Virus record (IMG/VR): IMGVR_UViG_3300020470_001313
Span: 86,608 to 150,607 of that record
From: a virus
Length of the DNA stretch: 64,000 nt
Direction: 5' to 3' (one strand)
The translations under genes were made by a program, and so were the position numbers. Positions 7,503-36,109 of this stretch are shown here, piece by piece; position 1 is the stretch's first letter; the number at the start of each line of letters is the position of its first letter. The notes under the pieces are model-generated. The model did not search any database and was not told the DNA's origin. It worked only from the letters and a program-made list of their open reading frames with translations.

Positions 7503-7510
7503 TATTTATG
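7503..7510 (-). promoter_or_regulatory. Late promoter variant CATAAATA
   Basis: CATAAATA on the minus strand, 18 bp upstream of the ATG at 7485 and overlapping the stop of the YHYH gene (7506). One base differs from TATAAATA. The position relative to a structural-gene start matches the boxes at 8378 and 38829. Confidence 0.6.
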
Positions 7511-8377: not shown

Positions 8378-8385
8378 TATTTATG
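8378..8385 (-). promoter_or_regulatory. Late promoter variant CATAAATA
   Basis: CATAAATA on the minus strand, 18 bp upstream of the ATG at 8360 and overlapping the stop codon of the 9242-codon gene (8381-8383). It would let the downstream genes be made independently of the 27.7-kb transcript. Confidence 0.6.
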
Positions 8386-11300
8386 GTGTACTTGACCATA
8401 TGCTTGTTACAGCGAAGACTCCAAGTGTAGTACCTGTACCCGCTGGAGATGATCCTTGTCCAGGAATGTCTCCACTGTCCACATTAGCAAGATTTTCAGG
8501 TGTTACATTAATAACATCACTATCAACAATCTCTTCTTTATAAAGAGCTTCTTCACCGTATGCACTTAAATCTGGAGCAGTCCAATCATCAGCAACCACT
8601 TGCGTGATAGTAACACCAGGATAATTGTAACCAGAACCAGGGGCGGTTGTATCTACACGAGAAACACCAACCAGTGCCTTAACTGCGCCATCAAAACCAG
8701 ATGCACTGTCAACACGGATAACTGGACGTGCGCTAAATCCAGATCCAGGATTGGTTACCTGAACAGAATCAATTCTATTTTTAACGATAGTAGCATTACC
8801 TTGAGCATCACGACCAAATACAGATCCGATATACTCAAATGTTACTAGTGTGTTAGAAGATTCAATAACAGCAACTTCTCTATCCTCAGTTTCACCTTGG
8901 ATGTCTAGAAGGTCACCTGCCTCAATTGGAGGAACAACCTCAGACTGCGTAACGTCAGCGTCAGAACCAATATACGCGAAACCAACAAATGTAGATCCTA
9001 CACGAGGAGTTTCTTTGAAGACGACACGAGAACCAACAAGTTCAAAACCGATTCCAGGTTGCTGAATAACACCGTTAAGTGATATAATGATGTTGTTGTC
9101 TGCGATAATAGACTCAGTTGCCTGTACACCTTCAGTAAGTGCGATAGAGTAGAATGTACCATCACGCTTGAGGTTGAAGGATGATCTCAATGAGTCAAAC
9201 TCAAATGATATATCATCCAACTGTCTCATCTTACCTACGTAGAAACCAGTGAAGGAAGATCCAATAGTAGGTGCTTCGTTAAACTGTATGATATCAGAGA
9301 ATGCTGTGTATGAACCAGCTGCGCCTGGAGGTTGTAGAATACCATTCACAAAGATCATCATATGACCTTCAGGATCTGGGAAGTATGGAGTACCGTTTTG
9401 CTCAGTTAGTTTGAACTGTGTTTGTGTACCATCAAATCCAACGAACCAGCGAGATGTACGTCCTACGACATCTATTTTCTCACTAGATGCTGCTTTATAT
9501 CCATCATCAGAAATGATAGTATCATTTCCAGTAAATGTTCCAACAACATCGCTTAGATAAACACGATTTGTTAATCCAATTTCATCAATTCTACTTACTG
9601 TACCGTAAGCAGTTGTAGTTGCGTTAACTGTAGTAGATACCTGACCATAAATTATTGGACTTGAAGTTTCACCTAATTGATATTGACCAATATATTGACC
9701 ATTAGCGAATGCGGAAGATCCTATTGGTGACACGTACAAGTAATTATTTGAATCATCCCATCCAGTAACAATACCATATGCACCACCTTCAATTATTGAC
9801 TGGTTGTTATTTGCCTGATAAACATACTGACCAACTGTAAAGTCAAGAGTTGCGTTAGGACCTGTGAGAGTAACACCTAAGCGTGTATATCCAGTAGCAA
9901 CAACCTTATCACCTGTAGCAATATTCGCTGCTATGGAAGGATGCTTAGTAACATCTAAGTAAATTCTAGTAGCATCTGGATAAACAATTGAATTCTCTTC
10001 AAATGAACCTATAACACTTTCAGTATCAAGTGTAAGTTTACCACCTGTATTATCAAGAACAGCACCTTCATTCTTATTGAATGATACGATATCTGCCTTA
10101 GCACCACTACTATAACCCTTGAATGAATATCCAGGTTTCATCTCATTAACAAGATTAATAACTTGGAATCTATCAACGATAGTCTGAATACCAGCGTTAG
10201 TTAAAGTACCAACTTCAAATGTGATATTTGGAGCACCACCATTACCTAATAGTGCGTCAGGAAGTGTTAATACATCACTAACACCATATCCAGTACCACC
10301 ATTAGCAATTGTAATGTTAGCAGCACCTTGATCATCAACAGTTACGTTGAATGTTGCGTTAGAACCATTACCACCTGTAGCAGCTATACCATCGTAAGAA
10401 CCTTGAGTTCTATTTGCATTAGCACCAGCATTTGTTAGATTAGTGATAGATCCAACAAGGTTAGTACCACCTGCGAGAGCAGCACCAGAAGTTTGACCTG
10501 TAATTCCTAAGTATTGTGTGAATGTACCCGCACTGATTACAACATCCATATAACGGAAGTTATCATCAGATGATGTAGCATAAACAACACCTGTTATAGC
10601 AGCGTTACCAGTGATCTGTACAATTTCACCTAAAGCGAAGTCTGCATTACCACTACCTAGAGTAACCTGATCTGCCTTGAAACTAAATCTCTTAAAGATC
10701 TTAGCAATTCTTGCTTCGTTACTTGTAACTTTTTCAATTTCAGCATAACTGTCAGATCCAATACCATAGAAATGATCAGAACCAACTAACTTCTGTCCCA
10801 ATCCAACTGGAATATTTCTAGAACCACCTGCAACATATGTTACTACTGGTAGAGTTACACCAACAAAACCAGTTTGCTGTTCATAGAAACTATCATCTAC
10901 AAGTTGTGACTTATAAAGTCTGATAGTATTCTTGATACGGAACATTACTTCAGGAGTATCATAGTATATGTTCAGTTCTGGTTTATATGCAGGTATTGTT
11001 CCAGAATCAGGAGCAGGATTAGTTAAATTATTATTGAGTTGTTCCTCAACAAAGTCCTCAAATTTATCAAGAATGTAGTTCTTAATATTAAATTCATCAG
11101 AGATGTAGAACTTCTCACCAGCCTCAGACTGATAGATGTCTAGGAATCCCTTATTAAGTTTAGCACCCCAGATAAATGATCCAGAAGTACCATCACCCTG
11201 AGAACCACCACCAGCTAAAGTACCAGTATTATTGAGCATATATTCCTTCATAGTAATAGAAGAAATACCGAATGGAACACGAATTGTGATGAATGGGCGG

Positions 11301-14300
11301 AACCAACCAAATCCATATGGTTTAACACCCCAGAATGTTCCCTTCATATCATTTGAAGGTGAACCATCACCAACAACTACGTTACCGTTAATGAATAGTG
11401 AAGGACCAATCGCACCTGTTACAGCATCCCATGTAAATTCTGCCTGATCTGTAGCACTCCATGAAATGCTATGACGGAACTTGTAATACTCATCCTGCTT
11501 AACAAAGCAACTGAATGTATATTCTTGATAAGATAGTGAAGAACCTTCGTCAAAGTTGTTATTAGTATCATCAAATGTGAGTGTAGCAGAGTCAAATGTA
11601 TCAAATGTTGGTAGATTGAATGTTCTTTCAATTACTTTTGGATCAGTATTAACACCAGGAATATACTTGTCAGCAGTTGAAGTACCGTCTGGTGCAACAC
11701 CTATATCATTAGAAATAGTACCACCACTTACAGTCCAACCACCAGCATCAAAAGTCTCTCTCTGTCCACTTGGCCAGATATTATCTGATTGAGTCTCAGA
11801 TGAGACAGGTGATGTAATTAAACGTATATTCTGTAATGCTGCGGTATTATTGAGGTTTGCAGTGCTTACTGGACCTTCAATGCAACCTTCATCCGCACTA
11901 GTAAATGTATGAGTAAAGTCACCACCAGTTTGTATTGCATTAATGGCAGCTGCTTGTCCAGCAACGAATGTATGTGGATACTGGTCAGCAGAAGCTGCAA
12001 CACCAACATTAATTATTATAGTTCCATCTTGCTTCTTAATACCATTAGGTTTACATGTTACGTAAGTATGTGTTGATGTATCAGGTGAAGCACCAATATT
12101 AATACTAAACGAATCGTTATTAATAATTGTAGGTTCCAACCACTTCTGACTCTTAGGATCAGTTGCTCTTGGATATGCATGAACACTAATCTCATTATCT
12201 AAAGCACACTTAAAGGTGATTGCACCATCATCAAGTTTAATTAAATCACCAGCAGAAATACCATGATTATTAATATTAAGTGTTAATATACCATTATTAG
12301 GATTATATGTAGCATCATCAGGATCATCTACATTATCTGTACCTACTGATTTAATGTTAATTGACTTATTATAATATGGGTCAGTTGTACGTGGGTATGT
12401 TTGATTACCAGCACCCTGAGTACATGTAAATGTCAAACTATTAGGTGCAAGTCTAATGCTAGTACCAGCAAGCAATCTATGACCAGTCATAACTGCTCCA
12501 GGTAGACTGGAAGCATATGTATGTGCGACTGGTACACTAATAGCACCGCCATTTGGATCATTAACATTAACTGTTATAGTTGTAGAACTAGTTGCTGTAA
12601 TAGCAAGTCTATTCTTAGCAGCATAATCTATACCACCTACTGCACGAGAACCAGTTAATCTAGGATATGCAGATTGAGTTTGAGTTGATTGACCAACATC
12701 AATAGTAACAGTTGTTGCGGTTACAGCATCAATTGGTAAAGTTTGACCTGAAGCAGGGTCAGAAGAACGAGGATAAGGGTGCTGTGTAGCATGGTTATCA
12801 GCGTCACAAGTAAAGATAACTGCTTGATCAGCAATCTCAACAGTATCACTAGTAGTATAACTATGAGATCCAATCTCAACTACTAGAAGTCCAGTTGCAG
12901 GATCATATGTTGTACCAGCAGCAGCAGTCTTTTGACTTAAAGTTCCACCAACATCAAATGTTAATCCATTAGTTGTACCAGTAACAAATGTATGAGTACC
13001 TGTTGCAGCAGCACAAGTGAAGGTAATAGATTCTGGTTTAAGACCAATAGTATCATCAGTAGTCAATCCATGATTATTACCAACAGTTAACTCCATATCA
13101 CCCGAAGTTGGGTTGTATGTTGCGTTACTTACATCAAGTGATCCAACTGTCAATTCCATATCACCAGTAATATGGTTGTAATCAGCAGCAGTAGGGGTAT
13201 AAGTTCCAGCAGTTGATTTACCAACATCAACAGTAACAGTGTTAGTAGTTACTGCCTCAACAGCAATATCTTTCTTATAGAATGGGTCAGTAGGTCTTGG
13301 ATATGAATGGTAACTACTATCATCATCCATTGCACAAGTAAATGTCAATGAATTAGGTTTGATTTGAATTACATCATTCTGTTTCTGGAGACAATCACTA
13401 AGTGCTGTCTGGAAAGTATGAGCACTAGTGTTAGAAGATATTCCTACATTAACCTCAAAAGTATTTGTAGTTACTGCGGCAATAGTCAACCATCTACCAC
13501 TAGCAGGATCAGATGATCTTGGATAAGTCTTAGTTACACTATTATCTAAAGCACACTTGAATGTTAATGAATTATCATCTATTTTAATCTTATCACCATT
13601 CTTAAATCCATGACCACTTAAAGTAATCACCATTGCACCTGTAGCAGGTGTAAAGGCAGCACCAGTTGGTGTATGCTTAGTATATGGTGTCATTCCATGA
13701 CCAGGAATGGTTAATACCAACTTACCTGTTGAAGGTGTATATGATACAGCAGTTGGAGTATAAGGAGTACCAATTAAATCAGATGTAGAAAGTAAATCAT
13801 AAATTGCATCATCTTTAACCTGTTTTAGGAAAGCAGTTTCTTCTGCTTCTTCCCAAACTCCACCCCAGTCAGCGATGGTAGAAGATCTAATCTCTTCTTC
13901 AAAGTACTCATCACCAACAAGTATTTGTAATGCTGCTTCACGACCTTGCTTACCAGCAGGTACAAGGATCTCAATTATAGTTTCAATTAAAGTATCAATA
14001 GCAGATTGAACATTAGCACAATCTTGAGCAGTATAATCAGTATTATAACCATCATCCTGAGAATCAGTTATAGTTAAATCTGTAACAGCAGGATTGATGT
14101 TTTGATCACTAAATCTACCAACATAATGTTCTGGAGTTAATTGACCAGCACCAGTACTCTGAAGTAAGTTATTAACTGCTTTCTTACAAAGGAATCCTGT
14201 TCTCTGAATTGCTTCAGCAGTTTGAGCAAGTTGATCTTCAACCTGTACAATATTATTAGATGTGTCAAGGAACTTCTTAGCAGCCTCTACAGAACTGTAG

Positions 14301-17300
14301 TTACCACCAACAAGAAGGTCAGAAGCAATAGAGTCAACGATAAGAGTCATATCTCTGATACACTTATTCTTACCGTCAGTATCACCACCTGGGTAGTCAA
14401 ATACTCTTATAGTGTTGCTACCAGCATCAATATAACTGAACTTCTCTTGCATCAGTCCAACTGCTTCAATAGCAATGTATTCTTTGTTAAAGATCATCAA
14501 ATCGGCAGCATCAGCAAATCTGTCACCAGTTGGTGAAAGAGTACTATTCATCAAATTAACAAGAGTGTCAATAGATGCCTTGACGTTTGCACATCCACCA
14601 CCATCAACAGTAATTCCAGCAGGAGGAATAATAACATTAGTAGAGTAATTAGCAACTAGAGTTCCGTCAATTGCTGCCTTAGCATAGAATGCTAGACGCT
14701 CATGAGCATATAGTGACTGTAGAAGTTGTAGTCTAATATGAAGTATCTCACCGTCAGAACCAAGATAGTATCTAAAGGCAGTAACAGTATTTGCATTACC
14801 ACCAAACTCTAAGTCTTCTGCAATAGCATCAAGAATTAAACCAAGGTCAGTCTTACAACGTATTGTACCAAGACCAGAAGCACCACCTGCGTTTCTTGGC
14901 ATATCCTGTACAAGATCAGGATAACGAGCAAGCATATCACCAGCAGTTTCATCAACAATAACAGTTGCATTAGCACGAATTAAATTCGCAGCATCCTTAT
15001 ATCTGTTGAGTGCATCTGGATTTAATTGATTACTTACAAATAAATCATCATCTGGGAATTCTTTATCACAAGTCCATTCGCTAGTAACATAAGCATCAAC
15101 TACACCACCACCAGTTTCACTGGTAGGAGCAGTTCTAGTTACAGTACCAAGATGGTCAGATGGTGTTAATGAATTTGCCTTATCAATAGTGTCAGATATA
15201 ATACCTGTATAAGTTGTAATTGCAGAAGCAACATCCTGACAATAAGGATTAGCAGTATCTCTAGTGATTGTAGTATCAATTACCTGTTCATATCCATGAT
15301 CTCCAGTTATTGAGATTGCGTCTCCACGCATAACATTGATCATGAAATCACGAACCTTAGCAATTGCCCATACAGTCTCACCCTCTTCACCAGAAATATG
15401 GTTTATAGTAATATTATTAGTGTCTGAACGATCAACATAGTATAGAGCAGTATCCCAAGACTTACTATTTCCTTCATTACGTAAGTCATAGCATATTGCC
15501 TTAACCCATTCTTTAGCATCTCTAACACACTTAGAGAATGATGGATGAGTTCTTTGAATAAAGTTAACCGAACTTGGATATTCAAGAGTTCTATTAGCAC
15601 CAGGATCAGATAAAGTATCTGTTACAATCTTCATCAAAGCATCAAGACGTGCATTTGCTTCAGGATATCCACCATAAACGAATGGAATATTTGAATTAGT
15701 TTGCTGAATTTCACCGTGAGAAGTAATTGCATTATCTTCAGAACTTACAAATGTATGTGCATAACCACCACCAGTCTTAACAGCACCAGCAGTAGCACTC
15801 TGGAATGTATGAGTGTAGTTACCACCAGCAATTACAGCACCAGCAGTAGCACCAATAAATGTATGGGCAGTAGGTGAACCTACAGAAGTAATTGGTTTTA
15901 CATCAACTGTAATAGTTCCAGTTTGTGTCTCAAGACCATTAGATGTAGCACTTATAAAGATATGCTCAAAATCTCCAATAGTAGTTTGACCAACCTGAAC
16001 ATCAAATGTATTGTCAGTTATATTACTGATTGCCATCCACTTATTACTAATAGGATCATTTCCTCTAGGATAAGTATGAAGTGTCTGATGTAAATCCTTA
16101 TTACATGTAAATGTTAATGAATTATCTAATATTCTAACCTTATCTTGATCAGTAAATCCATGATTAGCAATAGTTAGTTTTAATATACCAGTAGAAGCAG
16201 TATATGTAGCACCTGTTACTGTATGCTGATTCTTACCAACAGCAGTAATAGGAAGTGCTCTCTGCCAAGCATAGTCAGCACCAGCAGGTGTACCACCAAC
16301 ATAACCAGAACCAGTTCCACGAGGATAAGCAACCTGTACAGGTGAACCACCATAAGTACACTGGAATGTTAATGAACTATCTGCTAGTTTAATACTTTGT
16401 GCTTCAATTAAATCATGAGCACCAATATTAAGTACTAAATCACCAGAAGTGAAGTTATAAGTTGCACCAGCAACATCATATAGAACTTGAGGTGATGCAC
16501 CAACATTAACTGTAATTTCACCAGTCTGCTTCTTAAGAGCATTACCTACACAACTGTTAAAGGTATGAATAGAAGTATCTGGAGACTTACCAATTTGTAT
16601 ATCAAATGTATGTGTTGTTAAGTTCTCAATTGGAATCCACTGAGATGCAGAAGGATCTTTTGGTCTTGGATATGAATGATATGTTGTATCATTATCTAAC
16701 TTACAAGTAAACTTCAATGCATCATTATCAAGTTTGACTTGATCTCCAGCAACCTTAATACCATTAGCAGCAGCACTCTGGAATGTATGAGTGTAATTAC
16801 CACCAGTTCTAACAACAGAAGTTAAAATACTGTTATTAACAGCATTAACGAAGGTATGTGTATAATTACCACCACTTTGAACAGCATTAGAGGAAGTACC
16901 ACCAACCCATGTGTGTGCTGATACGTTAGAAGAAATACCAACGTTAATAGTAATGGTTGTACGACTTACATCATCAACATAGATTGTTCTATCATAGTAT
17001 GGGTCTCTCTGAATTGAAATACCATTATTAGTAGCAGACTCAAATATATGAGTATCTGGGTTTGTAGAAGGTGCAAGATCTAGAACTTGAACTTTAAAGG
17101 TAGTTGAAGTTACATCAAAGATTGGTAACCATCTACCACTAGCATAATCACTTCCACGAGGATATGAGTGGTTAGTAGCATTACCATCCTTAGCACACTT
17201 GAATGTTAATGAATTATCTGCAATCTTAATCTTCTCACCATACTTGTAACCATGAAGAGGTACAGTCAATGTCAAATGTCCTGTAGCAGGATCATATGAT

Positions 17301-29300: not shown

Positions 29301-32300
29301 TCAAACCTAGGATCCCAAATATTATAACTGGTTGCAGTGAAGTTAGTAACTTTGTGTACAGCAAGTTGGAATTGCTGTGCTTCACAATGTGCAATAGCAA
29401 ATGTCTTTTGAGGACTGTTACTAGTAGGTGCAACTTCTAAAAGTGCATAGAATCTACCATTATCAGGATTATATTTGATATCTGTTACTTTTTCAGAAGA
29501 ATCGGTACTAGCGATCTTTCTCTTTTGTTGAATAATGAGGTTTTCATTAAATACAATCAAGAAAGCATCATAAGGATTAGAAGTGTTAGTATTGGTATAA
29601 CCACCTATACAGAACTTATTCTCACCAACCTTAGTGATTGCAGTTACTATGTCTGCACGAGTAGAACCTGAAATACCAGCAATTTCCTTTTGATATTGAA
29701 TTCCAACATTAGCACCACCTGAAGATTGATTGAACTTCATCAAAACAACATCAGGGTTGTAGTTAATATTAAGTGAATTTGGTTTTGTAGTACCAGTTAC
29801 GTATACATCTTGAGTGTCAGAAGTAATGTCAACATATATTGCAGAAAAATCACAATAAGTATCTTGACCACTTGGTTGTTCTGATCTAGCAGTCTTAGAC
29901 CAAATTAAGTCTCCAGACTGAGAATACTTGGCAGCAAAACCTACTCTGTTGTTAAATTCATCTAATGTATTACCACAAACATAGTAATCTTTAGTACTAT
30001 CATCTGTAAATATAGCATTAGAAACACTATTTTTTAAATTATTTGTATTATTGAGGAAATACTCTGCCTTCTTAAATGACTGAGGATGTGATATTACTAA
30101 TTTTGGAGCACTAGTAAACCCATTACCAGATCTAACAATATTAAATTCTGATACAGTACCATTACCAGTATCAATTATTGGAGTAATAGCAGCATGTTGT
30201 CCTACACCATCAATTTCAACTGAAATAGGAACATCATCATTATATCCAGTACCTACTTGAGTTACATTGATTTTTTCAATACCATCAACTACTTTAACCT
30301 TATAAGTCTCTAATTCACTTGCTGAGTTTGGAGTATAATCAATAAGAACTCTATCAGTAGCAAGAAGATCATGAGGTTCAGCACATTCTACAACACCATG
30401 AGGAACATCATCAATTAACTCATAACTATAAGAACTAACAGATTTACCTTCAATTGTTCTAACAACAGCAGATATACCATATCCTTCAGTATCAGTATTA
30501 TCAAAGACTAAACGGTCATTAACCTGATAACTATCACCTGGATTCTCTACAACAAATGATGAAACCGCAGCATCTTCAAATTTAGTTGTTGTTTCAACTT
30601 CAATATCAACTTTAGAGTCAAATCTAACTTTAGGGAAGTAATCAAAGAGTTCTAACTTGTTTTCTTCAAGTAAAGATCCAACATCTGTAAGTTCTTCAGC
30701 AGTTGTTTCAGTATTAGTGATTTCATAGGTAGCGCGGAAACCGACATACTCAATGTCAGTAATATTTGCACTTTGTGAAGTTCCATTATTATCATAAGTA
30801 AAATCTAAACCAATATATTGATCATAAGTGCCATCAAATGCCTTATGGAAATTTTCATTAGAAATTGCTCTTACTAAAGCAGTATTAACTCCAAGTCCGT
30901 TATGAAGAACTTGTACAGTAATTGCAGAAGTGCTAGGAGCAAATTGAGCATTATTGGTAACAAATGCAGGTACAACATACTGTTGACCTTCTGCCATTGC
31001 AATGGTAGACTGATCGTATGTTAACCTGAATACTCTATCATCTTGACGAGTTGCTAAACGATTTCCGTTTTGTTGGTAATTAGTATCAATTACTTGGTCA
31101 CCATCAGCATCTTCCCAAATTGGGTCAAATGTTAACTCTAAACCATCTTCTGTAGTTAAGAGATCAGCAGTTGCGTTAGGTGTACGTTCAACATCAATGT
31201 CAACATTCTCATATGGGTCTCTATAACGAATAACACCAGTAGGAATATTTTGCTGTACAGCAGTTGCAGCAAGGTTCCATTTATCTACACTGGAGTTAAA
31301 ACTAGGACCAATAATGTATGGGAATACTGGGTTACCATCTTCAGTAGCGTCAATAGTAATGAAATAACCATAAACACCTTCTGGGAACTCAGGAGTTTTA
31401 CCAAAACGACCATTATAACGGTCTAAATCACCAACACCGAAGTTATAAGTATAATCTTCTACAAAAGTACCAGCAGGGAATGTATTAGTAGGTGGAGTTC
31501 CATAATATGAATCTGGAATACCATCATCATCACTATCAGTTAAAATTACAGTTTCTCTACCAAATGCATCAATTGGAGGTAATAATGGACCACCAGTTCT
31601 AACTGGAATTGTATTAGTTACCTCATTATAAACTAATTCTGGTTTAAGACTATAACTAGGTTCTAGACGACGTACATTTGAAGATTGATCAGTAGGATCA
31701 GAATATCCATAAGGACCATAAATTGGGTTACCATCAAACGCCCATCCAAGGATAGGAGAGTGTGTAATATTAGAAGTTGCTTCAGTTAACTTACCATTAG
31801 CATCTTCAATTAAATTATCACCAAGAACGTATCTAAGTCTCTTAGGATTGCTTAAGTGAGCATATTCACCACCATATTGGTTGTTTAAACCAGAGAAAAC
31901 AGATCCTTGAGCATCATCAAGAACAGTAGTAGGAATATACCCACCTCTTGTCTCATTTCCAACTTGTAATGGTTTTTGCTCAGGACCAGCAAGGTTATAG
32001 TTCCAATCTTGAACAGAAGCAGTAAATTTAGCATCTTTACCAACTGAACTTAGAACAATAATTGTAGTTCCTGATTCGTAGTTAATACCACGGTTACTGA
32101 TAGTAATACTTGTAACACGACCAGCATTTTCTCCATCAGTATCAATAATTGCTTTTGCAACAGCACCAAATCCAGTACCATAGATTTCTACAGTAGGAGG
32201 TGTTGTATATCCATTACCAGCGTTAATAACAGCAATTGAGATAATTCGTCCATTATTTACAATTGCTTGTGCCTGGGCACCTTCACCAGAGCTTAGAGTA

Positions 32301-35300
32301 GCAGTTGGAGATGAAGTATACTCAGAACCAGCAGAAGTTATGTTAACAGTCTTAATTGGACCTCTAACAGATGCTTCTGCAAGTGCTCCTGATCCACCAC
32401 CACCTACAATAGTGATTTCTGGCTTAGATGTATATCCAGTACCACCATCGTTGATTAGAACTCTTGAAACTGCCTTATTAACAACAACAGCAGTTGCAGA
32501 TGCTCCAGATCCACCTCCACCAACAATAGAGACTAGAGGAGGTTCTGTATAACCAGATCCAGCAGCACTTAGATCAATTGCAGTAATAGAACCGTTAACA
32601 ACGACATTACCTGTTGCTCCTGTACCGCCACCACCAGAAAGTGTTAAATTTGGAGGTGCAGCAGCATCATATTCAGATCCAGCACTATCAATGCTAATAG
32701 CAGTAACTTTACCAAATATTTTCTTTAAATCTGACTTATAAGACCATACAGAAACACCATTTACCCAGGAACCAGTTGCACCTGGGTTAATTGCATCTTT
32801 TGTTGAAATTGTTTGAGAATTTCTTGGAAAACGAAGTAATTTACGCTGGTTTCCTGGAATAAGTGCCTGACCTTCAAATGGACCTACTTTATAGTTGGGA
32901 ATACCTGATGCAGCAACATAAACGTAGTCATCATTGAAGAATGTGTTCTGAATGTTAGTAGTATAGATGCTAATAACGTTGTTAACAGATTCAACGTCAG
33001 ATTTACCTCTATTAAGGTCAACAGAGATCAAAATGTTACCTTGAGGAATTGTAGAACCAGGTTGTGGTAATTGATACTTAAATACGGTTGCAGATTCCCT
33101 AGATTGAACCAAATAGGTTCCATTGTATACAATTGGGTTTGCACCATAGATGGTTACCTGATCTCCTACCAAAAGTCCATGTGGATTACCACAAGTAACA
33201 GTTGCAGTCTGATTATTCAGTCCACCGTACTCAATACTAGTAACAGAAACTAATTTCTTAACATTATAGTTCCAAGTATCAAGTAATTTGGCATCTTCAG
33301 AAGCACCTAACTTAGAAACTGTTAATTTATCTCCAGGAAGGTAATAACTACCATCATCGGTCAAAGTTGTGTTTTCTGCCTTAACAATACCAACTAATTT
33401 GATAGTAACTTGAGTTTCTTGTCCGTAGTTAACATAAACATAGAAATTAGACGTTACTTCAGTAGCAGAATCCCAATCTTCTACAACACTGTTAACTGAA
33501 CGAGTACATTCAATGAACTGGTTAAGTGATTTCTCTTTATAACGTATTAATTCATTTCCTACAAGGATTTCACCGTTTCTTTCTGGCCAACCAATAGTAG
33601 AGTCAACTGTAATAACACTATCAGTTGTACTAATACCTTCAGCAAGTTTTGTCTTATATGGAATTGTAAATTCACCAGTAATAGTCTCTTCTGACAATAC
33701 AATTTCAAATATTTCTAATTCTGAGGTCTTAATTGAGATAAAGTTCTCAATTAGAGCAGATGCATCCTTAATATTGGGATCTACATTGTCAGAAAACTGT
33801 TGAATTAGACCATCAGAAAGATTTGCAGCACTACCTTCAGTAATTACACAACGAAGGATAGTATCAACCTGCCAAGTAGCAGCAGATGGTTTAACAATCT
33901 GTTCTTTAGGGTAAGATACACTTACATCCTCACCATAAAGAATTTTGAACAAATATGCAATAGATTTTGGAGTTCCTTTCGCAGAATAGAACGTTCTAAT
34001 GTTCTTAATAACAGTATTGATGTTAATCGTATTAAGATCAATCTTAGGAATGTCTGGAAGATACTGTTCTGTAAATTTAGACAACATCTTCTCAATGAAG
34101 ACACCATCTAAACATTTAACGGTACTTGTAAGAACAGGATGAACTGCTGGATAGGTCTTATTCTCAAATATAGCATTTCCGTCTTTGTCATATCCTACAA
34201 GACCAGAAACACCACGAGCACAACCAATAAATTGTGCTTTAGTATAAGCAGAACCTGATTCTATAACTTTAAATCCAGTAACTTCACCAAATCCTACTTC
34301 AGCAGAGGCAGTAGCAGAAGGTGGTCTCTGAATAATGATTGTTGGAGGTTCAGTGATACTATAACCAGTACCAAAGTTGGTAATATTAATATCAGTGATT
34401 TGACCGTTGAATATTGAAGCAACAGCAGTTGCACCAGTACCACCTATAAATTGACCTGAATTATCCTTCCTATTATCTACAATGTAAATTGAAGGAATAT
34501 CAACATAACCAGAACCACCAGAAAGTAGTTCAATATCAACTACACGTCCAGTAGTGTCAACAGTAACATCAAGAATTTGAGCAGCACCTGGGTCAATTAT
34601 AGCGATTCTAGGAGGACTTGTATATCCTCTACCCCTGTTAACAACACTAAACCCACTTACAGCACCATCTGTTATTTCAGCAGTAATTTCTGCCTGTACA
34701 GGATCAGCACCAGTAGGAGGATCAACAAATACAGTAGGAGGAACAGTATAACCTACACCACCCGATAAAACGCTAATAGAAGCAGGATCTACACCATTAT
34801 TAGCATCAAGAGTACAAGAACTTAATTTACCTCCACCTGGATCCTTAAAGACGATTCTAGGAGTAAACGTATAGTTACTACCAGAGTTTGTTAATTCAAT
34901 TGCAGTAACAGCTCCATTCTTAACTGTTGCTTTTGCAAGAGCAGAAACACCACCCGCAGCAGTTGGAACCTGAATATCTACGATAGGTGGTTGTAAATCA
35001 CTATATCCTGCACCACCATCTAGTAGAGTTAAATTCTTAATACCATTTACAAGTGATTCAGCAGATGCACCACCACCAGAAGTAGTTGTAACTACAGTAA
35101 CAGCAGGAGGATTAGTTAACCTATAATCTCTACCACCATTCTTTACTTTAATACCAGAAAGCTTTCCAACATTATCAATTTGGGCAACAGCAGTTGCTCC
35201 AGTACCAAAACTGGTAATAGGTGCCTCAATTGATCCAATATACGCCCTTTCATCAGCAGTAGGGGCAGTTTTAAGTTTTAAAGTCTGTTTAAGTCCATCA

Positions 35301-36109
35301 CTAACAACAGAATAGTCAATATAAGGAATAAGCAGTTTATCACCAATAATAACGTTCAAATATACCGTTAAAACTGGAGTATAACTAACTTCTGACTTTT
35401 CTAGGTCAAATTCAGTCTTAGAACTGTTAAATTGACTAGAAATTGGGTCTAAAACCTGTACAGAATCCTGTAAAAATCCTTTTAAGTAGAAAATCGCAGT
35501 TTCTTCTACAGAGTCGGAAGGGTTAGGTGATCTTGGAGGATCTTGGAATACTATGTCTGTTCCACTAATAGTGAAATCTACTGTTGGAATTAGATACTTA
35601 CCAAATAATCTTACTACAATATGATCAGCACTTGGAGGTGCAATTGGAGCATTTTCTGAAGCTAACGGAAATGACCTCTGAACACCGTTAAAAGTCAAAT
35701 ATGGACTCTGTAACTCAATCCACTTTTCCCTGAACTCTGGATAGGATACACCGTCTGTTAAAGAGATTTCTGGTGATTTATCTGCCCTTTCATAGTAAAT
35801 AATCTCATCATTTACCAAGAGCGAACCATTACTCTCAGCAAAATCATCAACACTCTCTACAGTTATAACATCTGCCTTACTAGTAACCTCTTCAAGTAAA
35901 GATGTTTCACTTTGAATTAGGTTAAAGTCATACTCGTCTATATTCAGGTAATCCCTGAACTCATTTACAATATTTTGGGGTTGACCAGTCTTTTCCTGAC
36001 CCTTATAGTAATATTGTAAGAACTTCTCAAATGCTGGATAATCAGACCTGATAAAATCAGGCAACTGATTAAGGACATTCTGCGATACCTTATTAGTTGT
36101 ACTTGTCAT
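8381..36109 (-). CDS. Giant multidomain baseplate protein (9242 aa) in the gp7 position
   Basis: One uninterrupted frame, roughly 1 MDa. Residues 1-1100 look like the gp7-type wedge proteins of marine T4-like phages: QLPDFIRSDYPAFEKFLQYY at 15-34, and FTEQYLPDIPKIDLN then IRTFYSAKGTPKSIAYLF near 680. Then, in order: GSGYTEPP/GGGGSGA repeats (about 270-650, 1140-1345, 3195-3430); a YHYH-like module (1414-1610); a propeller-like stretch (2017-2404); LamG-like modules (2404-2654, 4294-4494); YPR repeats (4667-6797, 7447-8080) split by a helical block (6804-7444); a carbohydrate-binding-like stretch (8080-8327); and a beta-rich C-terminus. The stop of gp6 is 20 bp upstream. T4 gp7 has 1032 residues and six copies per baseplate. 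The wedge role of the N-terminus is inferred from position and motif; the adhesive role of the rest is inferred from its modules. Confidence 0.82.
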   Translation of the reverse strand: MTSTTNKVSQNVLNQLPDFIRSDYPAFEKFLQYYYKGQEKTGQPQNIVNEFRDYLNIDEYDFNLIQSETSLLEEVTSKADVITVESVDDFAESNGSLLVNDEIIYYERADKSPEISLTDGVSYPEFREKWIELQSPYLTFNGVQRSFPLASENAPIAPPSADHIVVRLFGKYLIPTVDFTISGTDIVFQDPPRSPNPSDSVEETAIFYLKGFLQDSVQVLDPISSQFNSSKTEFDLEKSEVSYTPVLTVYLNVIIGDKLLIPYIDYSVVSDGLKQTLKLKTAPTADERAYIGSIEAPITSFGTGATAVAQIDNVGKLSGIKVKNGGRDYRLTNPPAVTVVTTTSGGGASAESLVNGIKNLTLLDGGAGYSDLQPPIVDIQVPTAAGGVSALAKATVKNGAVTAIELTNSGSNYTFTPRIVFKDPGGGKLSSCTLDANNGVDPASISVLSGGVGYTVPPTVFVDPPTGADPVQAEITAEITDGAVSGFSVVNRGRGYTSPPRIAIIDPGAAQILDVTVDTTGRVVDIELLSGGSGYVDIPSIYIVDNRKDNSGQFIGGTGATAVASIFNGQITDINITNFGTGYSITEPPTIIIQRPPSATASAEVGFGEVTGFKVIESGSAYTKAQFIGCARGVSGLVGYDKDGNAIFENKTYPAVHPVLTSTVKCLDGVFIEKMLSKFTEQYLPDIPKIDLNTININTVIKNIRTFYSAKGTPKSIAYLFKILYGEDVSVSYPKEQIVKPSAATWQVDTILRCVITEGSAANLSDGLIQQFSDNVDPNIKDASALIENFISIKTSELEIFEIVLSEETITGEFTIPYKTKLAEGISTTDSVITVDSTIGWPERNGEILVGNELIRYKEKSLNQFIECTRSVNSVVEDWDSATEVTSNFYVYVNYGQETQVTIKLVGIVKAENTTLTDDGSYYLPGDKLTVSKLGASEDAKLLDTWNYNVKKLVSVTSIEYGGLNNQTATVTCGNPHGLLVGDQVTIYGANPIVYNGTYLVQSRESATVFKYQLPQPGSTIPQGNILISVDLNRGKSDVESVNNVISIYTTNIQNTFFNDDYVYVAASGIPNYKVGPFEGQALIPGNQRKLLRFPRNSQTISTKDAINPGATGSWVNGVSVWSYKSDLKKIFGKVTAISIDSAGSEYDAAAPPNLTLSGGGGTGATGNVVVNGSITAIDLSAAGSGYTEPPLVSIVGGGGSGASATAVVVNKAVSRVLINDGGTGYTSKPEITIVGGGGSGALAEASVRGPIKTVNITSAGSEYTSSPTATLSSGEGAQAQAIVNNGRIISIAVINAGNGYTTPPTVEIYGTGFGAVAKAIIDTDGENAGRVTSITISNRGINYESGTTIIVLSSVGKDAKFTASVQDWNYNLAGPEQKPLQVGNETRGGYIPTTVLDDAQGSVFSGLNNQYGGEYAHLSNPKRLRYVLGDNLIEDANGKLTEATSNITHSPILGWAFDGNPIYGPYGYSDPTDQSSNVRRLEPSYSLKPELVYNEVTNTIPVRTGGPLLPPIDAFGRETVILTDSDDDGIPDSYYGTPPTNTFPAGTFVEDYTYNFGVGDLDRYNGRFGKTPEFPEGVYGYFITIDATEDGNPVFPYIIGPSFNSSVDKWNLAATAVQQNIPTGVIRYRDPYENVDIDVERTPNATADLLTTEDGLELTFDPIWEDADGDQVIDTNYQQNGNRLATRQDDRVFRLTYDQSTIAMAEGQQYVVPAFVTNNAQFAPSTSAITVQVLHNGLGVNTALVRAISNENFHKAFDGTYDQYIGLDFTYDNNGTSQSANITDIEYVGFRATYEITNTETTAEELTDVGSLLEENKLELFDYFPKVRFDSKVDIEVETTTKFEDAAVSSFVVENPGDSYQVNDRLVFDNTDTEGYGISAVVRTIEGKSVSSYSYELIDDVPHGVVECAEPHDLLATDRVLIDYTPNSASELETYKVKVVDGIEKINVTQVGTGYNDDVPISVEIDGVGQHAAITPIIDTGNGTVSEFNIVRSGNGFTSAPKLVISHPQSFKKAEYFLNNTNNLKNSVSNAIFTDDSTKDYYVCGNTLDEFNNRVGFAAKYSQSGDLIWSKTARSEQPSGQDTYCDFSAIYVDITSDTQDVYVTGTTKPNSLNINYNPDVVLMKFNQSSGGANVGIQYQKEIAGISGSTRADIVTAITKVGENKFCIGGYTNTNTSNPYDAFLIVFNENLIIQQKRKIASTDSSEKVTDIKYNPDNGRFYALLEVAPTSNSPQKTFAIAHCEAQQFQLAVHKVTNFTATSYNIWDPRFDIDEFGDFYVSGTAYSGSNSNSIIVTKVTVDDDVVWGKRWTPTGGTTWRNLKAIGGNIDVFGQYNVACNYEVNESTAEYDSYRKQSEVSKIKYDGTLISTNVIKFTRNITGFEINAFISDASGDPVVVGQAFRNEVIGLFNFEQTSETEPVDTTGNITNRQLIGDYYKGSNITSGAPNGKGSTGGLMIDAWDGSAWSDTHLELEPGNNTGIWGFGDSFDINGDWTIEGFYSVDETNDQQDTRLGAVGSTHHILFGVGHGNEPGITVMLNRSNKRLEMFASATTQRTAGAISSVDNVLINNVGYVHVALTKAGNVYTLYANGIQVGTGTLPGNSNIATTAKIYMGNSPNWTGAATGVAVTTAGSFNVDGFKITDRVIQVIVPSTTADFNTYLQKYTYAVDCGLILKTDKNVDTSRQGDFTGTNTKWQFNTAAYTYSNVTDQVINSGSLTLAGEGLQVLDYNDVNSTLVLDSLTISSTTDVWSTRTATIPAIGGRKVKATPETWGKFYIQTVDAIQADNILKFTFNQPATFNVGSQLQQKNAGGQVIGTATIVETDDTGVYVASYGNATDWVGWEDTGEIVSTGTEVNEIPSQTFANQDFDATAGQGTFIFNIPGGLSARFKDYNINDYTVRIDATAPAGSPYIVGSVITPTSDTVSWNADKTELTIGASPNQLTAVTQITLITNLEKIIVLDDAANTDKIYFTTAEAHRHSVGDNLLISGNDLDEFNGSFNVTNVLSTRSFIVGLRGTAVGLPVAASLIDIYAKHPVLKMYYQHKYKFMLGDESLQGYFMSFSKDNLFKLEYSFNSITRVGTPGYQVGNQPEPYVQISINNDVTNISYYFDPSRTGDTSPVDDSTYMDVVTTPYHGNFVIYSTSGGTITTGDTIFKFPLTSEPEGTAQASLVKYTTFSEKAVGPIGDIRLVNGGGFYKKLPVISNIVSNRKIERVAITEPGTEYAVGEYTGVPIAGDGEGGKVNITVADGEDEDGNNIPGQISEVIVTDPGKNYTTATIDIESITGILGAGLTGSGAELDVVIPPNGSGASVFVKADKIGKIKKLKNNNFGFDYTHDYTLRPEITFPVNVQLTSTNILDSITVTDPGSGYATPPAVIIAGGGGTGATAEASIKNGRIDAIEVKDPGAGYSSQPDVTLKSSFNYVVNLDLNLLQFSFPHGIVNGSAVTLTANDDGSGDDPELPISSFGRLNANTTYYAISGITNSLENDQLRLAITKDNAAIGDYISYTNAGTGRQVVLTDSFGGAATANVVTGRFLAGELLYQGDSLETATATGYVSENDGWQIGPRILKIVDYTGTFSKNQIVTGTISKASGTIDNFSIAKGVLEVGAITTTPGRFVDDVGKPSEIIQKIQDSYFYQDFSYSVKAPVSISDWRDILITNVHPAGFKVFGELGLVEKSTIENKETAFELTKSVNLAESAIVPNLQNFTLVEPVYTEFDNTEVRFRQKNLTSSEQILTSTVQKINDISDQFDGEKISFPLTVQNINQDGNVVTEPVIASANQLLISLNGIVQSPGDAFTVQGSNIVFSSPPQPPANVQYSNATLEFKTIHRANLSTISGIFPLIGGTIRGIVTDYEAIVVATGLTSVDFYYKTTAGQPFQTDDPSTTLTYEGEAITSSATGFTANVDSITTLTNTNLFQFKEDIENLRGDNAKIERVNLEGDNGQVLTTVPAGLSASGNTFDVASGYALAKVTLTTAGTGYIDNIDGVTTTGGSGTGMTVEVEADGSGVITSVKIKERGTGYSLGDVVTISGGGNQDATVTIVANAGGVYQIDSERFEVSSIIGNTVTANRGVDGTTVVGHQTDSNVFGTTIEIGDTVLLSKTAGTYQSTAGLFDIVIGDIIIGQQSAIVAEVVGISAYRDPVTNEPNNQVIISEGSTFQGLVFNRITNINFQNVVLDNISQTQLQLTDINDVNAEFNSKFPNSEVVSNLILEYNNAAGTFTVDEDIRNHIVNYSNISGDLIDGETVRLYKLAYDEPKVTPDGLILSGDIIRSENGTAQVIGTNYARKYLYLGKVARRSTDLHVPVAQSGAINATLQKKFGSASLYLNGSAYVSVPTSTEFGFGNGEWTVECWFYAASVTGTQHLIDFRTQASEASPCIRLDGTGLEFHVSGADVITGGTVTQNTWHHVAVSRDGNNHRMFLDGTQVGSTWTNATDYGTTKPIKIGADHAAANQFQGYVDELRVSNNKRYTTNFTVATYMHQGDANTLLLVHFDGANLSTTFQDWSGVPTWNEGDQFLTGDTTFRFFDASTEILNNVELIANEAIYQTDKEFVKLHIPHPDTEVPITYGKEFYNVIQSNLDFIAAEAYDRISPEPPPGTGPIDCKDDVKDIIRNISYNLTYGYNNKTYDAAKLYVNNAKLDHLKGKESFSIRVFNEARDITKRVINNSPVLQYNGFKASDATYEPVSGDLTVDIGKSHNFIVNSTRSNGSACVTANSLKFTCAMDGNKSEHTYPRLEDQAYLRKNPVKEVGITSHTIDNATYDPETGILQLWVPGHKFVDGNSVQILGKSLVFTCDQDDHHTDHNYPRTTDPWNGRWLKISNSNPDSFEVNVGKSLSYTFTPTDGTYDPTTGDMVLDIGTHSLAAGQTIKIQPNSLVWTCALDSNATEHTYPRTAIDTHQAASGSTYAPLTGVLDVTTAATHGMQVGDWIKFDEGAITFNCTMDGGSSNKAYPRQTDPTYDKWLQVESIPSTTRFTVNVGKSPAVNYTPTDASYNPTTGIMELTIGTHGMVVGDAIKLAQDSLTFTCDYNNDNHSTTKTYPRSNGNDSVTYNTSIAITAVGDAVLTPTFADYNPTTGHMTLTIKDHPIQNGDKIKIANNALSFTCDHDNHDTVHSYPRATDEASGKWLSVFNRTPDTVTVQILPAVPSTNTTAHTFVSCTAGCVTGKDMTISMQVLPSAPSTDQTEHRFVSASAGAVETGGNYTHTFVSGTANGIKQKRDKVYDTSIPIKYEGTPYTAAQSDTDYEPTTGVLTIGQTGHNFTVGEYVKIVDESLTFQCNTDSYGSNHLYPRPTDPASGQWLRINAVATNSFDVQIGKSSDTSNHNCTAVATNGIIRRDSKITVNVGVSSNTSAHTFVRADNNCIETGTGENVEGFSVSGASYTPASGVLELTIGDHDFSVGEYVKIANNSLNFVCNHNSDNYITNKSYPRTTDPAYNKFLKITDIGTNSKTATGATYEPTTGLLTITSAAHGFVSGQRIKIVDSSIVFTCLAGGGTHAYPRSTDPISGKWITVTVVDADTFKCNVGVSSNTTTHSFDSAVANGIQYQSGTIQVNALQGTTPTNTSTHQFVNANNQYTPTDADYDPATGWMTLTLADHTFASGEYIKVADAGLVFTCATDDNKTQHSYPRETDPFSGKWMKIGKVTTDTFAINVGPTSNNTVHTFVSAVFNCLTRAVVYNGGAYNHVFKSHAPHGLLGQDGNITFNVGSSPEVGHDVSAATYTPADGNLVLNIGKHNMNVGNGIKIDTDSLTFQCNMDSQNTNKTYPRATDPVHNTTIPITAVGQTQHTVVAGNHAFVSALSGGIRDASATGNTYTVTGAVYTAETGNLVLTVGADGTDSLAASDEVQMKVSSLTMTCDLDNNATNHAYPRATDPIFTTLGTGTADATWSRVIPITKSGNDITMNVGIGTAGTRYNPETGVLTLDIQNHGWSGPTNLTGASGTTYDPATGELSVTTTAVHGLANGARVRFEEGAFTFSCAMGSGNKTYPRKSDPTFGEWLDVDVDSTTVFKVNVGKSPLKDFHVAHADYDHLTGDLVLEIGNHDLKVGTAIKLAKESLVFTCSNDGYATTHKYPRTTDPAYNAALNIKGVTATTITINVNVGSSGNQFAHKFVPAVGLTPSAATYNPGNGTLQMTINGHGLESTGRIKIAEDALQFTCDMDHHETVHSYPRSTDPVANKWLDVTVVDANTITVPVGQTPIVNHDVTNAVYTPNTGEMVLTVGHNHGIKKGQGIKIAANSLSFKCQQDATAQEPDGVTTHTYPRNTIDTSTVNTASYDPATGHLTLTVPLHGYKYGEKIKIADNSLTFKCAKDGNATNHSYPRGSDYASGRWLPIFDVTSTTFKVQVLDLAPSTNPDTHIFESATNNGISIQRDPYYDRTIYVDDVSRTTITINVGISSNVSAHTWVGGTSSNAVQSGGNYTHTFVNAVNNSILTSVVRTGGNYTHTFQSAAANGIKVAGDQVKLDNDALKFTCKLDNDTTYHSYPRPKDPSASQWIPIENLTTHTFDIQIGKSPDTSIHTFNSCVGNALKKQTGEITVNVGASPQVLYDVAGATYNFTSGDLVLNIGAHDLIEAQSIKLADSSLTFQCTYGGSPVQVAYPRGTGSGYVGGTPAGADYAWQRALPITAVGKNQHTVTGATYTASTGILKLTIANHGFTDQDKVRILDNSLTFTCNKDLHQTLHTYPRGNDPISNKWMAISNITDNTFDVQVGQTTIGDFEHIFISATSNGLETQTGTITVDVKPITSVGSPTAHTFIGATAGAVIAGGNYTHTFQSATAGAVKTGGGYAHTFVSSEDNAITSHGEIQQTNSNIPFVYGGYPEANARLDALMKIVTDTLSDPGANRTLEYPSSVNFIQRTHPSFSKCVRDAKEWVKAICYDLRNEGNSKSWDTALYYVDRSDTNNITINHISGEEGETVWAIAKVRDFMINVMRGDAISITGDHGYEQVIDTTITRDTANPYCQDVASAITTYTGIISDTIDKANSLTPSDHLGTVTRTAPTSETGGGVVDAYVTSEWTCDKEFPDDDLFVSNQLNPDALNRYKDAANLIRANATVIVDETAGDMLARYPDLVQDMPRNAGGASGLGTIRCKTDLGLILDAIAEDLEFGGNANTVTAFRYYLGSDGEILHIRLQLLQSLYAHERLAFYAKAAIDGTLVANYSTNVIIPPAGITVDGGGCANVKASIDTLVNLMNSTLSPTGDRFADAADLMIFNKEYIAIEAVGLMQEKFSYIDAGSNTIRVFDYPGGDTDGKNKCIRDMTLIVDSIASDLLVGGNYSSVEAAKKFLDTSNNIVQVEDQLAQTAEAIQRTGFLCKKAVNNLLQSTGAGQLTPEHYVGRFSDQNINPAVTDLTITDSQDDGYNTDYTAQDCANVQSAIDTLIETIIEILVPAGKQGREAALQILVGDEYFEEEIRSSTIADWGGVWEEAEETAFLKQVKDDAIYDLLSTSDLIGTPYTPTAVSYTPSTGKLVLTIPGHGMTPYTKHTPTGAAFTPATGAMVITLSGHGFKNGDKIKIDDNSLTFKCALDNSVTKTYPRSSDPASGRWLTIAAVTTNTFEVNVGISSNTSAHTFQTALSDCLQKQNDVIQIKPNSLTFTCAMDDDSSYHSYPRPTDPFYKKDIAVEAVTTNTVTVDVGKSTAGTYTPTAADYNHITGDMELTVGSLDVSNATYNPTSGDMELTVGNNHGLTTDDTIGLKPESITFTCAAATGTHTFVTGTTNGLTFDVGGTLSQKTAAAGTTYDPATGLLVVEIGSHSYTTSDTVEIADQAVIFTCDADNHATQHPYPRSSDPASGQTLPIDAVTATTVTIDVGQSTQTQSAYPRLTGSRAVGGIDYAAKNRLAITATSSTTITVNVNDPNGGAISVPVAHTYASSLPGAVMTGHRLLAGTSIRLAPNSLTFTCTQGAGNQTYPRTTDPYYNKSINIKSVGTDNVDDPDDATYNPNNGILTLNINNHGISAGDLIKLDDGAITFKCALDNEISVHAYPRATDPKSQKWLEPTIINNDSFSINIGASPDTSTHTYVTCKPNGIKKQDGTIIINVGVAASADQYPHTFVAGQAAAINAIQTGGDFTHTFTSADEGCIEGPVSTANLNNTAALQNIRLITSPVSSETQSDNIWPSGQRETFDAGGWTVSGGTISNDIGVAPDGTSTADKYIPGVNTDPKVIERTFNLPTFDTFDSATLTFDDTNNNFDEGSSLSYQEYTFSCFVKQDEYYKFRHSISWSATDQAEFTWDAVTGAIGPSLFINGNVVVGDGSPSNDMKGTFWGVKPYGFGWFRPFITIRVPFGISSITMKEYMLNNTGTLAGGGSQGDGTSGSFIWGAKLNKGFLDIYQSEAGEKFYISDEFNIKNYILDKFEDFVEEQLNNNLTNPAPDSGTIPAYKPELNIYYDTPEVMFRIKNTIRLYKSQLVDDSFYEQQTGFVGVTLPVVTYVAGGSRNIPVGLGQKLVGSDHFYGIGSDSYAEIEKVTSNEARIAKIFKRFSFKADQVTLGSGNADFALGEIVQITGNAAITGVVYATSSDDNFRYMDVVISAGTFTQYLGITGQTSGAALAGGTNLVGSITNLTNAGANANRTQGSYDGIAATGGNGSNATFNVTVDDQGAANITIANGGTGYGVSDVLTLPDALLGNGGAPNITFEVGTLTNAGIQTIVDRFQVINLVNEMKPGYSFKGYSSGAKADIVSFNKNEGAVLDNTGGKLTLDTESVIGSFEENSIVYPDATRIYLDVTKHPSIAANIATGDKVVATGYTRLGVTLTGPNATLDFTVGQYVYQANNNQSIIEGGAYGIVTGWDDSNNYLYVSPIGSSAFANGQYIGQYQLGETSSPIIYGQVSTTVNATTTAYGTVSRIDEIGLTNRVYLSDVVGTFTGNDTIISDDGYKAASSEKIDVVGRTSRWFVGFDGTQTQFKLTEQNGTPYFPDPEGHMMIFVNGILQPPGAAGSYTAFSDIIQFNEAPTIGSSFTGFYVGKMRQLDDISFEFDSLRSSFNLKRDGTFYSIALTEGVQATESIIADNNIIISLNGVIQQPGIGFELVGSRVVFKETPRVGSTFVGFAYIGSDADVTQSEVVPPIEAGDLLDIQGETEDREVAVIESSNTLVTFEYIGSVFGRDAQGNATIVKNRIDSVQVTNPGSGFSARPVIRVDSASGFDGAVKALVGVSRVDTTAPGSGYNYPGVTITQVVADDWTAPDLSAYGEEALYKEEIVDSDVINVTPENLANVDSGDIPGQGSSPAGTGTTLGVFAVTSIWSSTP
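11130..11870 (-). other. Giant-protein segment: carbohydrate-binding-module-like region
   Basis: Residues about 8080-8327. The stretch includes GGWTVSGGTISNDIGVAPDG followed by TADKYIPG, then YTFSCFVKQDE and a Trp/Phe-rich beta stretch (GVKPYGFGWFRPF). This resembles the beta-sandwich carbohydrate-binding folds found in phage tail proteins. It sits directly after the last YPR repeat. Resemblance is by motif only, so confidence is modest. Confidence 0.45.
11870..13770 (-). repeat. YPR protein-repeat block 2 (6 modules) within the giant gene
   Basis: Residues about 7447-8080. Six copies of the core are visible: YPRSSDPASGRW, YPRPTDPFYKK, YPRSSDPASGQ, YPRLTGSRAV, YPRTTDPYYNK and YPRATDPKSQKW. 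One further unit keeps TPTSGDMELTVGNNHGL and FTCA but has lost YPR. Each full unit runs [YN]P.[TS]G.[ML].[LI]T[IV]..HG, then IK...LTFTC, then YPR..DP, then F.[VI]N[VI]G.S. Copies are diverged at the DNA level. Confidence 0.85.
13780..15700 (-). other. Helical block interrupting the YPR repeats
   Basis: Residues about 6804-7444. Predicted largely alpha-helical from composition (Ala/Leu/Ile/Asp-rich, long runs without Gly/Pro), in contrast with the beta repeats on both sides. A submodule recurs: CVRDAKEWVKAICYDLRNEG, CKTDLGLILDAIAEDLEFGG and CIRDMTLIVDSIASDLLVGG. A fourth copy lies outside the block at 22120-22480. Confidence 0.6.
15720..22110 (-). repeat. YPR protein-repeat block 1 (20 modules) within the giant gene
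   Basis: Residues about 4667-6797. I count 20 YPR cores, from TYPRLEDQ to TYPRGNDPISNKW, about 107 residues apart on average. A unit reads: a YDP.TG.L.LTI..H opening; a G..IKI...SLTFTC.{1,3}D segment with one Cys; H.YPR..DP...KWL.I; T..TF.VNVG.S; and an optional HTF.SA..NGI tail that can itself be repeated two or three times. Spacing varies because the tails differ in number. Recurrent DNA stretches such as ggatcagttgttcttggata make the block a likely recombination substrate. Confidence 0.88.
22120..22480 (-). other. Isolated helical module of the giant protein
   Basis: Residues about 4544-4664, directly before the first YPR module. It contains CKDDVKDIIRNISYNLTYGY, the same Cys-x-x-Asp helix motif found three times in the block at 13780-15700. 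This suggests the helical and YPR modules belong together. Confidence 0.5.
22630..23230 (-). other. LamG/concanavalin-like module 2 of the giant protein
   Basis: Residues about 4294-4494. Hallmarks of a laminin-G-like jelly roll: FGSASLYLNGSAYVSVPTS, GEWTVECWFYAAS, NTWHHVAVSRDGNNHRMFLDG, and YVDELRVSNNKRYT. Such domains commonly bind glycans on phage tail proteins. Confidence 0.75.
28150..28900 (-). other. LamG/concanavalin-like module 1 of the giant protein
   Basis: Residues about 2404-2654. Contains GDWTIEGFYSVDE, GYVHVALTKAGNVYTLYANG and VDGFKITDRV, in the order expected for a LamG-like beta-sandwich. It follows directly after the propeller-like stretch. Confidence 0.68.
28900..30060 (-). 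other. Beta-propeller-like stretch of the giant protein
   Basis: Residues about 2017-2404. Recurrent blade-like units of the SBBP kind: DYYVCGNTLDEFNN.VGFAAKY, DVYVTGTTKP, KFCIGGYTNT and DFYVSGTAYSGS, each followed by a strand describing a K.[NTD] turn and a W. About five units are visible. A propeller fold is an inference. Confidence 0.5.
31280..31870 (-). other. YHYH-like module of the giant protein, degenerate motif, with acidic Ca-site-like insert
   Basis: Residues about 1414-1610. It retains HSPILGWAFDGNPIYGPYGY, FPAGTFVEDYTYN, DLDRYNGRFGKTPEFPEG and FPYIIGPSF, so it is homologous to the two downstream YHYH proteins, but it lacks YHYH. Between its halves lies an insert with DSDDDGIPD (about residue 1529), a thrombospondin type-3-like acidic loop. 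Confidence 0.7.

Follow-up and report, generated by a model that had tools for sequence, protein, structure and literature searches.

Gene content of the locus

The analysed window is a stretch of 64,000 nucleotides (bases 86,608-150,607 of a 150,607-base virus record), in which a single minus-strand gene accounts for 18% of the whole record. A psbA-type reaction-centre gene lies at the edge of the record, and the source virus is therefore very likely a cyanophage. Re-reading the frame from its ATG to its stop bore out the uninterrupted 27.7 kb and 9242 codons of the original prediction. The calculated mass of the encoded protein is 989.9 kDa. The genes of the locus and the parts of the giant protein are listed below by window position, with residue numbers referring to the giant protein.

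1295..2827, minus strand: gp8 (PF09215 over cut-off; phrog_438)
2860..6297, minus strand: 1145-aa YHYH wedge protein (PF14240; phrog_708)
6301..7485, minus strand: wedge-fibre connector of the gp9/gp10-N type (PF07880; phrog_677)
7506..8360, minus strand: 284-aa YHYH protein, downstream of the giant gene (PF14240)
8381..36109, minus strand: putative giant gp7 gene (9242 aa, ATG start, no internal stop)
8534..10201, minus strand: conserved C-terminal block, residues 8637-9192 (identity to Syn19 and syn9; self-match)
12041..22078, minus strand: array of 28 YPR units of about 90 aa each, residues 4678-8023, interspersed with other modules
22718..23137, minus strand: concanavalin/LamG-type domain 2, residues 4325-4464 (PF13385, 76.7 bits, over cut-off)
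24830..25669, minus strand: core block c, residues 3481-3760, with WRDILITNVHPAGF (strong conservation; intermediates)
25670..33484, minus strand: insert 2, residues 876-3480, modular, between gp7 blocks b and c (spacing comparison with phage OC)
28247..28642, minus strand: concanavalin/LamG-type domain 1, residues 2490-2621 (PF13385, 34.4 bits, over cut-off)
31346..31882, minus strand: YHYH domain, residues 1410-1588 (PF14240, E 2.6e-25, over cut-off)
33485..34126, minus strand: core block b, residues 662-875, with the gp7 signature FYSAKGTPKSIAYLFKILYGEDVSV at about 705-732 (hhalign, hmmsearch, PF23786)
34190..35782, minus strand: insert 1, residues 110-640, beta modules with repeated GG-x-G-x-GY units (AF2; self-paralogy)
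35906..36088, minus strand: putative core element a, predicted N-terminal helices, residues 8-68 (NQLPDFIR..YYYKGQEKTG; AF2 helices, order in the gp7 profile)
36129..38102, minus strand: gp6, adjacent to the giant gene on its upstream side and wedge partner of gp7 (PF21379 and PF21871, both over cut-off; phrog_219)
38102..38521, minus strand: gp25 (phrog_261/43, baseplate wedge subunit; same place in Syn19 and S-RIM8)

The giant gene starts 19 nt past the end of gp6, and the annotated isolates that we viewed have the same order. It lies in the slot between gp6 and the YHYH-gp8 genes, as had been proposed. Elsewhere in the window, a homing-endonuclease-like gene (45084-46055, plus strand) is opposite in strand to its neighbours and coincides with a local flip in GC skew. 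A tRNA-Val call at 62811-62901 (minus strand) falls within a conserved structural ORF (62035-63351, phrog_692) and is probably a false positive.

A split gp7 core, probably in three elements

A gp7 profile matched the giant protein at three ordered places, residues 15-68, 705-732 and 3639-3668, of which only 705-732 is significant alone; the other window proteins tested gave no match. The first place, aligned with profile positions 19-74, falls in element a, for which AF2 predicted helices at residues 8-15, 18-23 and 25-40 with low confidence (about 30-60). Packing of elements a and b together was not seen in the AF2 model.

Block b carries the clearest signal. Its hhalign comparison with a gp7 alignment reached 96.8% over the signature FYSAKGTPKSIAYLFKILYGEDVSV, whose T4 counterpart is FYSTKGIEASYKFLFKVLYNEEVEI (T4 residues 732-759), and PF23786 (Baseplate_wedge) scored over its cut-off. 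As anticipated in the original prediction, profile comparison linked this N-terminal block to gp7 chains of solved structures: searched with hmmsearch against the PDB, a profile of residues 651-870 returned only gp7 chains (5hx2_A, E 8e-4; 9f4a_AY, E 3e-4). A phmmer search of the PDB with the single N-terminal sequence found nothing, and profiles alone worked. Foldseek with residues 1-870 gave as its top match a gp7-sized chain (1031 residues) of the gp7-containing structure 9f4a (E 6e-3), which we dropped as proof on account of its TM score of 0.07.

Block c is strongly conserved, with 54-98% identity among the members compared, and aligns to the portion of the gp7 core that follows the signature and ends in HPVGF/HPAGF (T4 residues about 840-890). 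Its comparison with the gp7 profile gave 60% and a pairwise E of 8.6e-5, in the right order. Using tblastn with this block, we retrieved proteins labelled gp7 or wedge initiator in P-HM1, S-CAM9 and S-SZBM1, and wedge subunits in S-H34, phiM7 and phage OC. The direct match of block c to T4 gp7 is weak, but it becomes strong through the intermediates OC, phiM7 and P-HM1. Against the PDB, the sole match of block c was a capsid protein, which we judged spurious.

The most informative intermediate is a 631-aa protein of Ochrobactrum phage OC, annotated 'T4-like gp7'. Residues 4-310 of this protein align with the T4 gp7 C-terminal profile (i-E 1.7e-12, 38 bits), while block b of the giant matches the OC protein at 80-212 (5.9e-19, 59 bits) and block c at 232-285 (8e-15, 46 bits), these E-values being computed for a small sequence set. 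Segments adjacent to each other in a compact gp7 therefore lie some 2,900 residues apart in the giant protein: the distance from the signature in block b to element c is about 150-170 residues in OC and about 2,900-2,950 in the giant. In all, about 600 and about 2,600 extra residues separate the successive elements of the gp7 core, which follow the order of T4. The suspicion that the N-terminus is gp7-like hence stands as a gp7 assignment, borne by profiles, synteny and the OC bridge, but the confinement to the N-terminus does not, the third element lying at residues 3481-3760.

Pfam families PF21428, PF21427 and PF21456 (Gp7_helical, Gp7_5th and Gp7_6th) match T4 gp7 and have no match in the giant. 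We take them to mark close relatives of T4 and not the whole family; if they are taken as defining, the giant is to be called a 'gp7 homologue'. All matches in an NCBIfam scan of the giant were far below cut-off.

A small beta module flanks insert 1 on both sides, at residues 65-108 and about 815-860 (nt about 33530-35917). Positions 156-199 of the block b profile match again at residues 65-108, and also at 706-759 of the 1145-aa protein. The paired module could mark how the insert arose.

Inserted modules and the C-terminal part

Insert 1 is absent from the compact OC gp7. AF2 modelled most of this insert with a pLDDT of about 90 or higher, and it shows self-paralogy at residues 300-640. Beyond block c, about 5,500 residues comprise LamG-type domain 2, the YPR array and the conserved C-terminal block. 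The latter is 53-54% identical to its counterparts in Syn19 and syn9 and contains repeats related to residues 110-300 and 3720-3800; the last 359 aa of the protein have 586 relatives in IMG/VR. An earlier estimate that eight ninths of the protein consist of repeats and binding-type modules is too high as regards detectable repeats, with 54% of 120-aa tiles matching a paralogous stretch in another part of the protein.

A family of giant gp7 proteins in cyanophages

A tblastn search with the N-terminal 1000 residues found matches in 462 GenBank phage records, nearly all of them cyanophages. In the same slot, annotated copies have lengths of 7124 aa in P-SSM7 (PSSM7_090), 6932 aa in S-SSM4 (YP_007677248), 6817 aa in ACG-2014d (YP_009133414), 6619 aa in S-SZBM1 (S-SZBM1_208, UNH61325), 6483 aa in Syn19, 6395 aa in S-RIM8 (A.HR1) and 6076 aa in syn9. 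IMG/VR frames with both ends range from about 5,450 to 9,244 codons, and the 9242 aa found here are the longest among the family members compared, bar a 9243-aa sister. The protein is therefore not the isolated, exceptional case that it had seemed, since about 5,400-9,200 aa is usual in this cyanophage group.

The PHROG family phrog_701 ('virion structural protein', 6136 positions), filed by PHROGs under head and packaging, matches the giant along its length, and the homology is full-length and colinear, with conserved N-terminal, core and C-terminal blocks. GenBank labels vary: the S-RIM8 copy is named gp7, those of S-SZBM1 and P-HM1 baseplate wedge initiator, and those of S-SSM4 and ACG-2014d virion structural protein. 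The protein studied here is the longest-seen kind in an established, little-noticed family of giant gp7 proteins in T4-like cyanophages.

The S-SSM4 and ACG-2014d copies occupy the same slot, share the C-terminal block, and are colinear with the giant, at 69-70% identity, over roughly the first 4,700-4,900 residues; they differ in being about 2,300-2,400 residues shorter and in having five and three YPR motifs, respectively, against 26. S-SZBM1_208 agrees in gene order and core blocks, but is more diverged (54% in block c), has one YPR motif, and is known from virions by mass spectrometry. The S-RIM8 and P-SSM7 copies lie in the same gp6-gp9 slot and are shorter. By contrast, OC gp7, phiM7 gp92 (1006 aa), the Melnitz-2 protein (896 aa) and HTVC008M gp055 (1016 aa), all of which have blocks b and c in order and lie beside gp6, are compact, with few or no inserted modules and no YPR array. 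T4 gp7 itself (1032 aa; PDB 5HX2, 5IV5) shares with the giant its form of the signature, the HPVGF element in order and the gp6-gp7 adjacency, but has other N-terminal domains, an unsplit core and one ninth of the length.

Several records show unusual arrangements or names. S-SSM7 (GU071098) has two adjacent ORFs, one of 3007 aa and one of 3001 aa (L231:6888-15911 and 16977-25982), both labelled gp7; the second contains the best YPR match, with 12 tblastn places in the record, and this lineage seems to encode the giant as two pieces. In metaG-MbCM1 (JN371769.1), one part of the giant is named 'YadA domain structural protein' and a different part 'gp14 neck protein'; this is probably a split or misnamed copy. 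Finally, one contig, IMGVR_UViG_2974739009_000001, contains two gp7 copies (L088 and L089), each about 83% identical to T4 gp7, which is perhaps a mixed or duplicated assembly.

The YPR array and length variation

The 28 units of the array in the giant contain 26 YPR motifs, and syn9 has none. Across 19 copies, total length correlates with the number of motifs (r = 0.944), at 110 residues per motif. The positions of the core blocks hardly shift in copies of more than 5,400 aa (b at about 690-710, c at 3,390-3,660). Length differences from copy to copy stem mainly from the number of YPR modules. A tree built from blocks b and c places the window protein with S-SSM4, ACG-2014d and G004 (support 96) and YPR-rich copies on separate branches, the deep nodes being weak; the length of the array has therefore probably changed repeatedly.

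AF2 modelled two YPR units as all-beta with a pLDDT of 84. This fold had no match in the PDB at E <= 0.001. A profile of the pair matched an iota-carbonic anhydrase in the PDB (E 2.6e-4), with no stretch significant alone, which we judged a chance match.

Homologues in virions and possible cleavage

Homologues of the giant protein have been found in virions. S-SZBM1_208, with a mass of 724 kDa, was detected in CsCl-purified S-SZBM1 with 71 peptides and a coverage of 13.5% (PMC9146016). This coverage corresponds to about 894 residues, whereas at most 759 of the first 1100 residues are coverable with tryptic peptides of 6-35 aa and at most one missed cleavage (910 if peptides of up to 40 aa are allowed). 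The peptides therefore almost certainly reach beyond residue 1100, which in this homologue largely answers the refuting condition set earlier, peptides confined to the first ~1100 residues. Ninety-one virion peptides were reported for S-CREM2 ORF122 (1937 aa; PMC10665884), a match to the giant family in tblastn, and T4-GC969, the cluster of Syn19_088, was detected in S-SM1 virions (PMC3037559).

In virion mass spectrometry, an intact chain and co-retained fragments look alike. A single chain might be cleaved after synthesis, giving a piece with the gp7 core and separate adhesins, which could remain attached to the baseplate or be released; the modules appear self-contained, and the two S-SSM7 ORFs show that parts can be encoded apart. 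However, the homologue peptides almost certainly include some from past residue 1100, and the gp7 core appears to extend over residues 8-3760, so that cuts within the inserts would break it. Moreover, Pfam, PHROGs and NCBIfam recognised no protease domain in the giant, although an unknown or a host protease could act. We consider such a polyprotein unlikely.

Relationship to VrlC

T4 gp7 has been described as absent from pelagi- and cyanomyophages and apparently substituted by VrlC (PMC7029224). The giant would then be an accessory adhesin on the baseplate, with the functional role of gp7 passing to VrlC, a conserved protein encoded nearby that measures about 2,000-2,500 aa, and 2484 aa in this phage. 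Yet the giant matches the gp7 profile in order, whereas neither the 2484-aa VrlC-like protein of this phage nor the protein at the VrlC position of S-SSM4 matches it. In HTVC008M, phiM7 and P-HM1, furthermore, VrlC coexists with a protein that is labelled gp7 or matches the gp7 blocks. At the level of sequence, the statement that VrlC replaces gp7 is not supported, since VrlC has no gp7-profile match, the giant has one, and both occur together; a purely accessory giant seems very unlikely to us.

HTVC008M gp055 (L114:33435-36485) is annotated 'head closure Hc2', yet has gp7 blocks b and c. The name probably derives from shared beta repeats, which phrog_460 also matches.

Integrity of the reading frame

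We searched 25 related IMG/VR records with the N-terminal 1100 and the C-terminal 499 residues of the giant. IMGVR_UViG_3300026292_000004, a separate assembly of a different strain, encodes a single 9243-aa frame with both ends and 96-97% identity, and both ends are also present in a 9131-codon frame of a third record (G036). The codon alignment of the window gene with IMGVR_UViG_3300026292_000004 has 3 gap codons and no frameshifts (dS 0.18, dN 0.033), and dN/dS lies between 0.095 and 0.296 across all full 400-codon blocks. Purifying selection acts on the giant frame from end to end.

A single frame is thus kept in a different strain under purifying selection, and a join of separate genes by the assembler is therefore excluded for practical purposes: the metagenomic origin of the record and the extensive self-similarity of the protein would favour such an artefact, but the independent 9243-aa and 9131-codon frames, the even selection without frameshifts and the 6,000-7,100-aa copies of isolates leave it a negligible probability. 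The same codon alignment and the selection throughout led us to reject a chance open frame.

Proposed organization of the baseplate arms

In T4, gp7 nucleates the wedge together with a gp6 dimer, and six copies are present per virion. We think it probable that the gene described here encodes a greatly enlarged gp7, a wedge initiator with large putative receptor-binding arms. The scattered core elements would fold together and bind the gp6 dimer in the T4 manner, with one giant chain per wedge. Six copies would weigh 5.94 MDa, in agreement with the ~6 MDa predicted earlier, the number six itself being extrapolated from T4. The inserts would emerge from the core in the form of loops, and the C-terminal part would extend as a long arm, giving outward arms or a skirt.

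These arms would bear the YHYH, LamG-type and other binding-type modules and could make early contact with the cyanobacterial surface during adsorption, the YPR array serving as a length-adjustable part of the arm. Not every YHYH or LamG-type domain binds receptors; going by these domains in its sequence, it is plausible that the giant is an adhesin. S-SZBM1 has no visible long tail fibres, which leaves room for gp7 arms as receptor binders. Together with the YHYH and LamG-type modules, this suggests that the arms take part in host binding. For the most specific form of the proposal, we put the chances at about even: an uncut chain of ~0.99 MDa, in six copies per virion, would be both wedge core and receptor-binding apparatus, with a fold built from segments separated by over 3,600 residues and a reach set by gain and loss of YPR modules.

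The split core is a prediction that can be tested directly in any cultured cyanophage, for example Syn9, S-SSM4 or S-SZBM1. The YPR module represents a recurrent domain without a recognised solved fold, whose copy number is the chief source of length change. T4-like phages count among the common viruses that infect marine cyanobacteria. If the proposed reading is true, gp7 has been neither lost nor replaced by VrlC in them, and if the wedge initiator is at the same time a megadalton receptor-binding arm, host recognition would be built into the baseplate and not into the tail fibres only.
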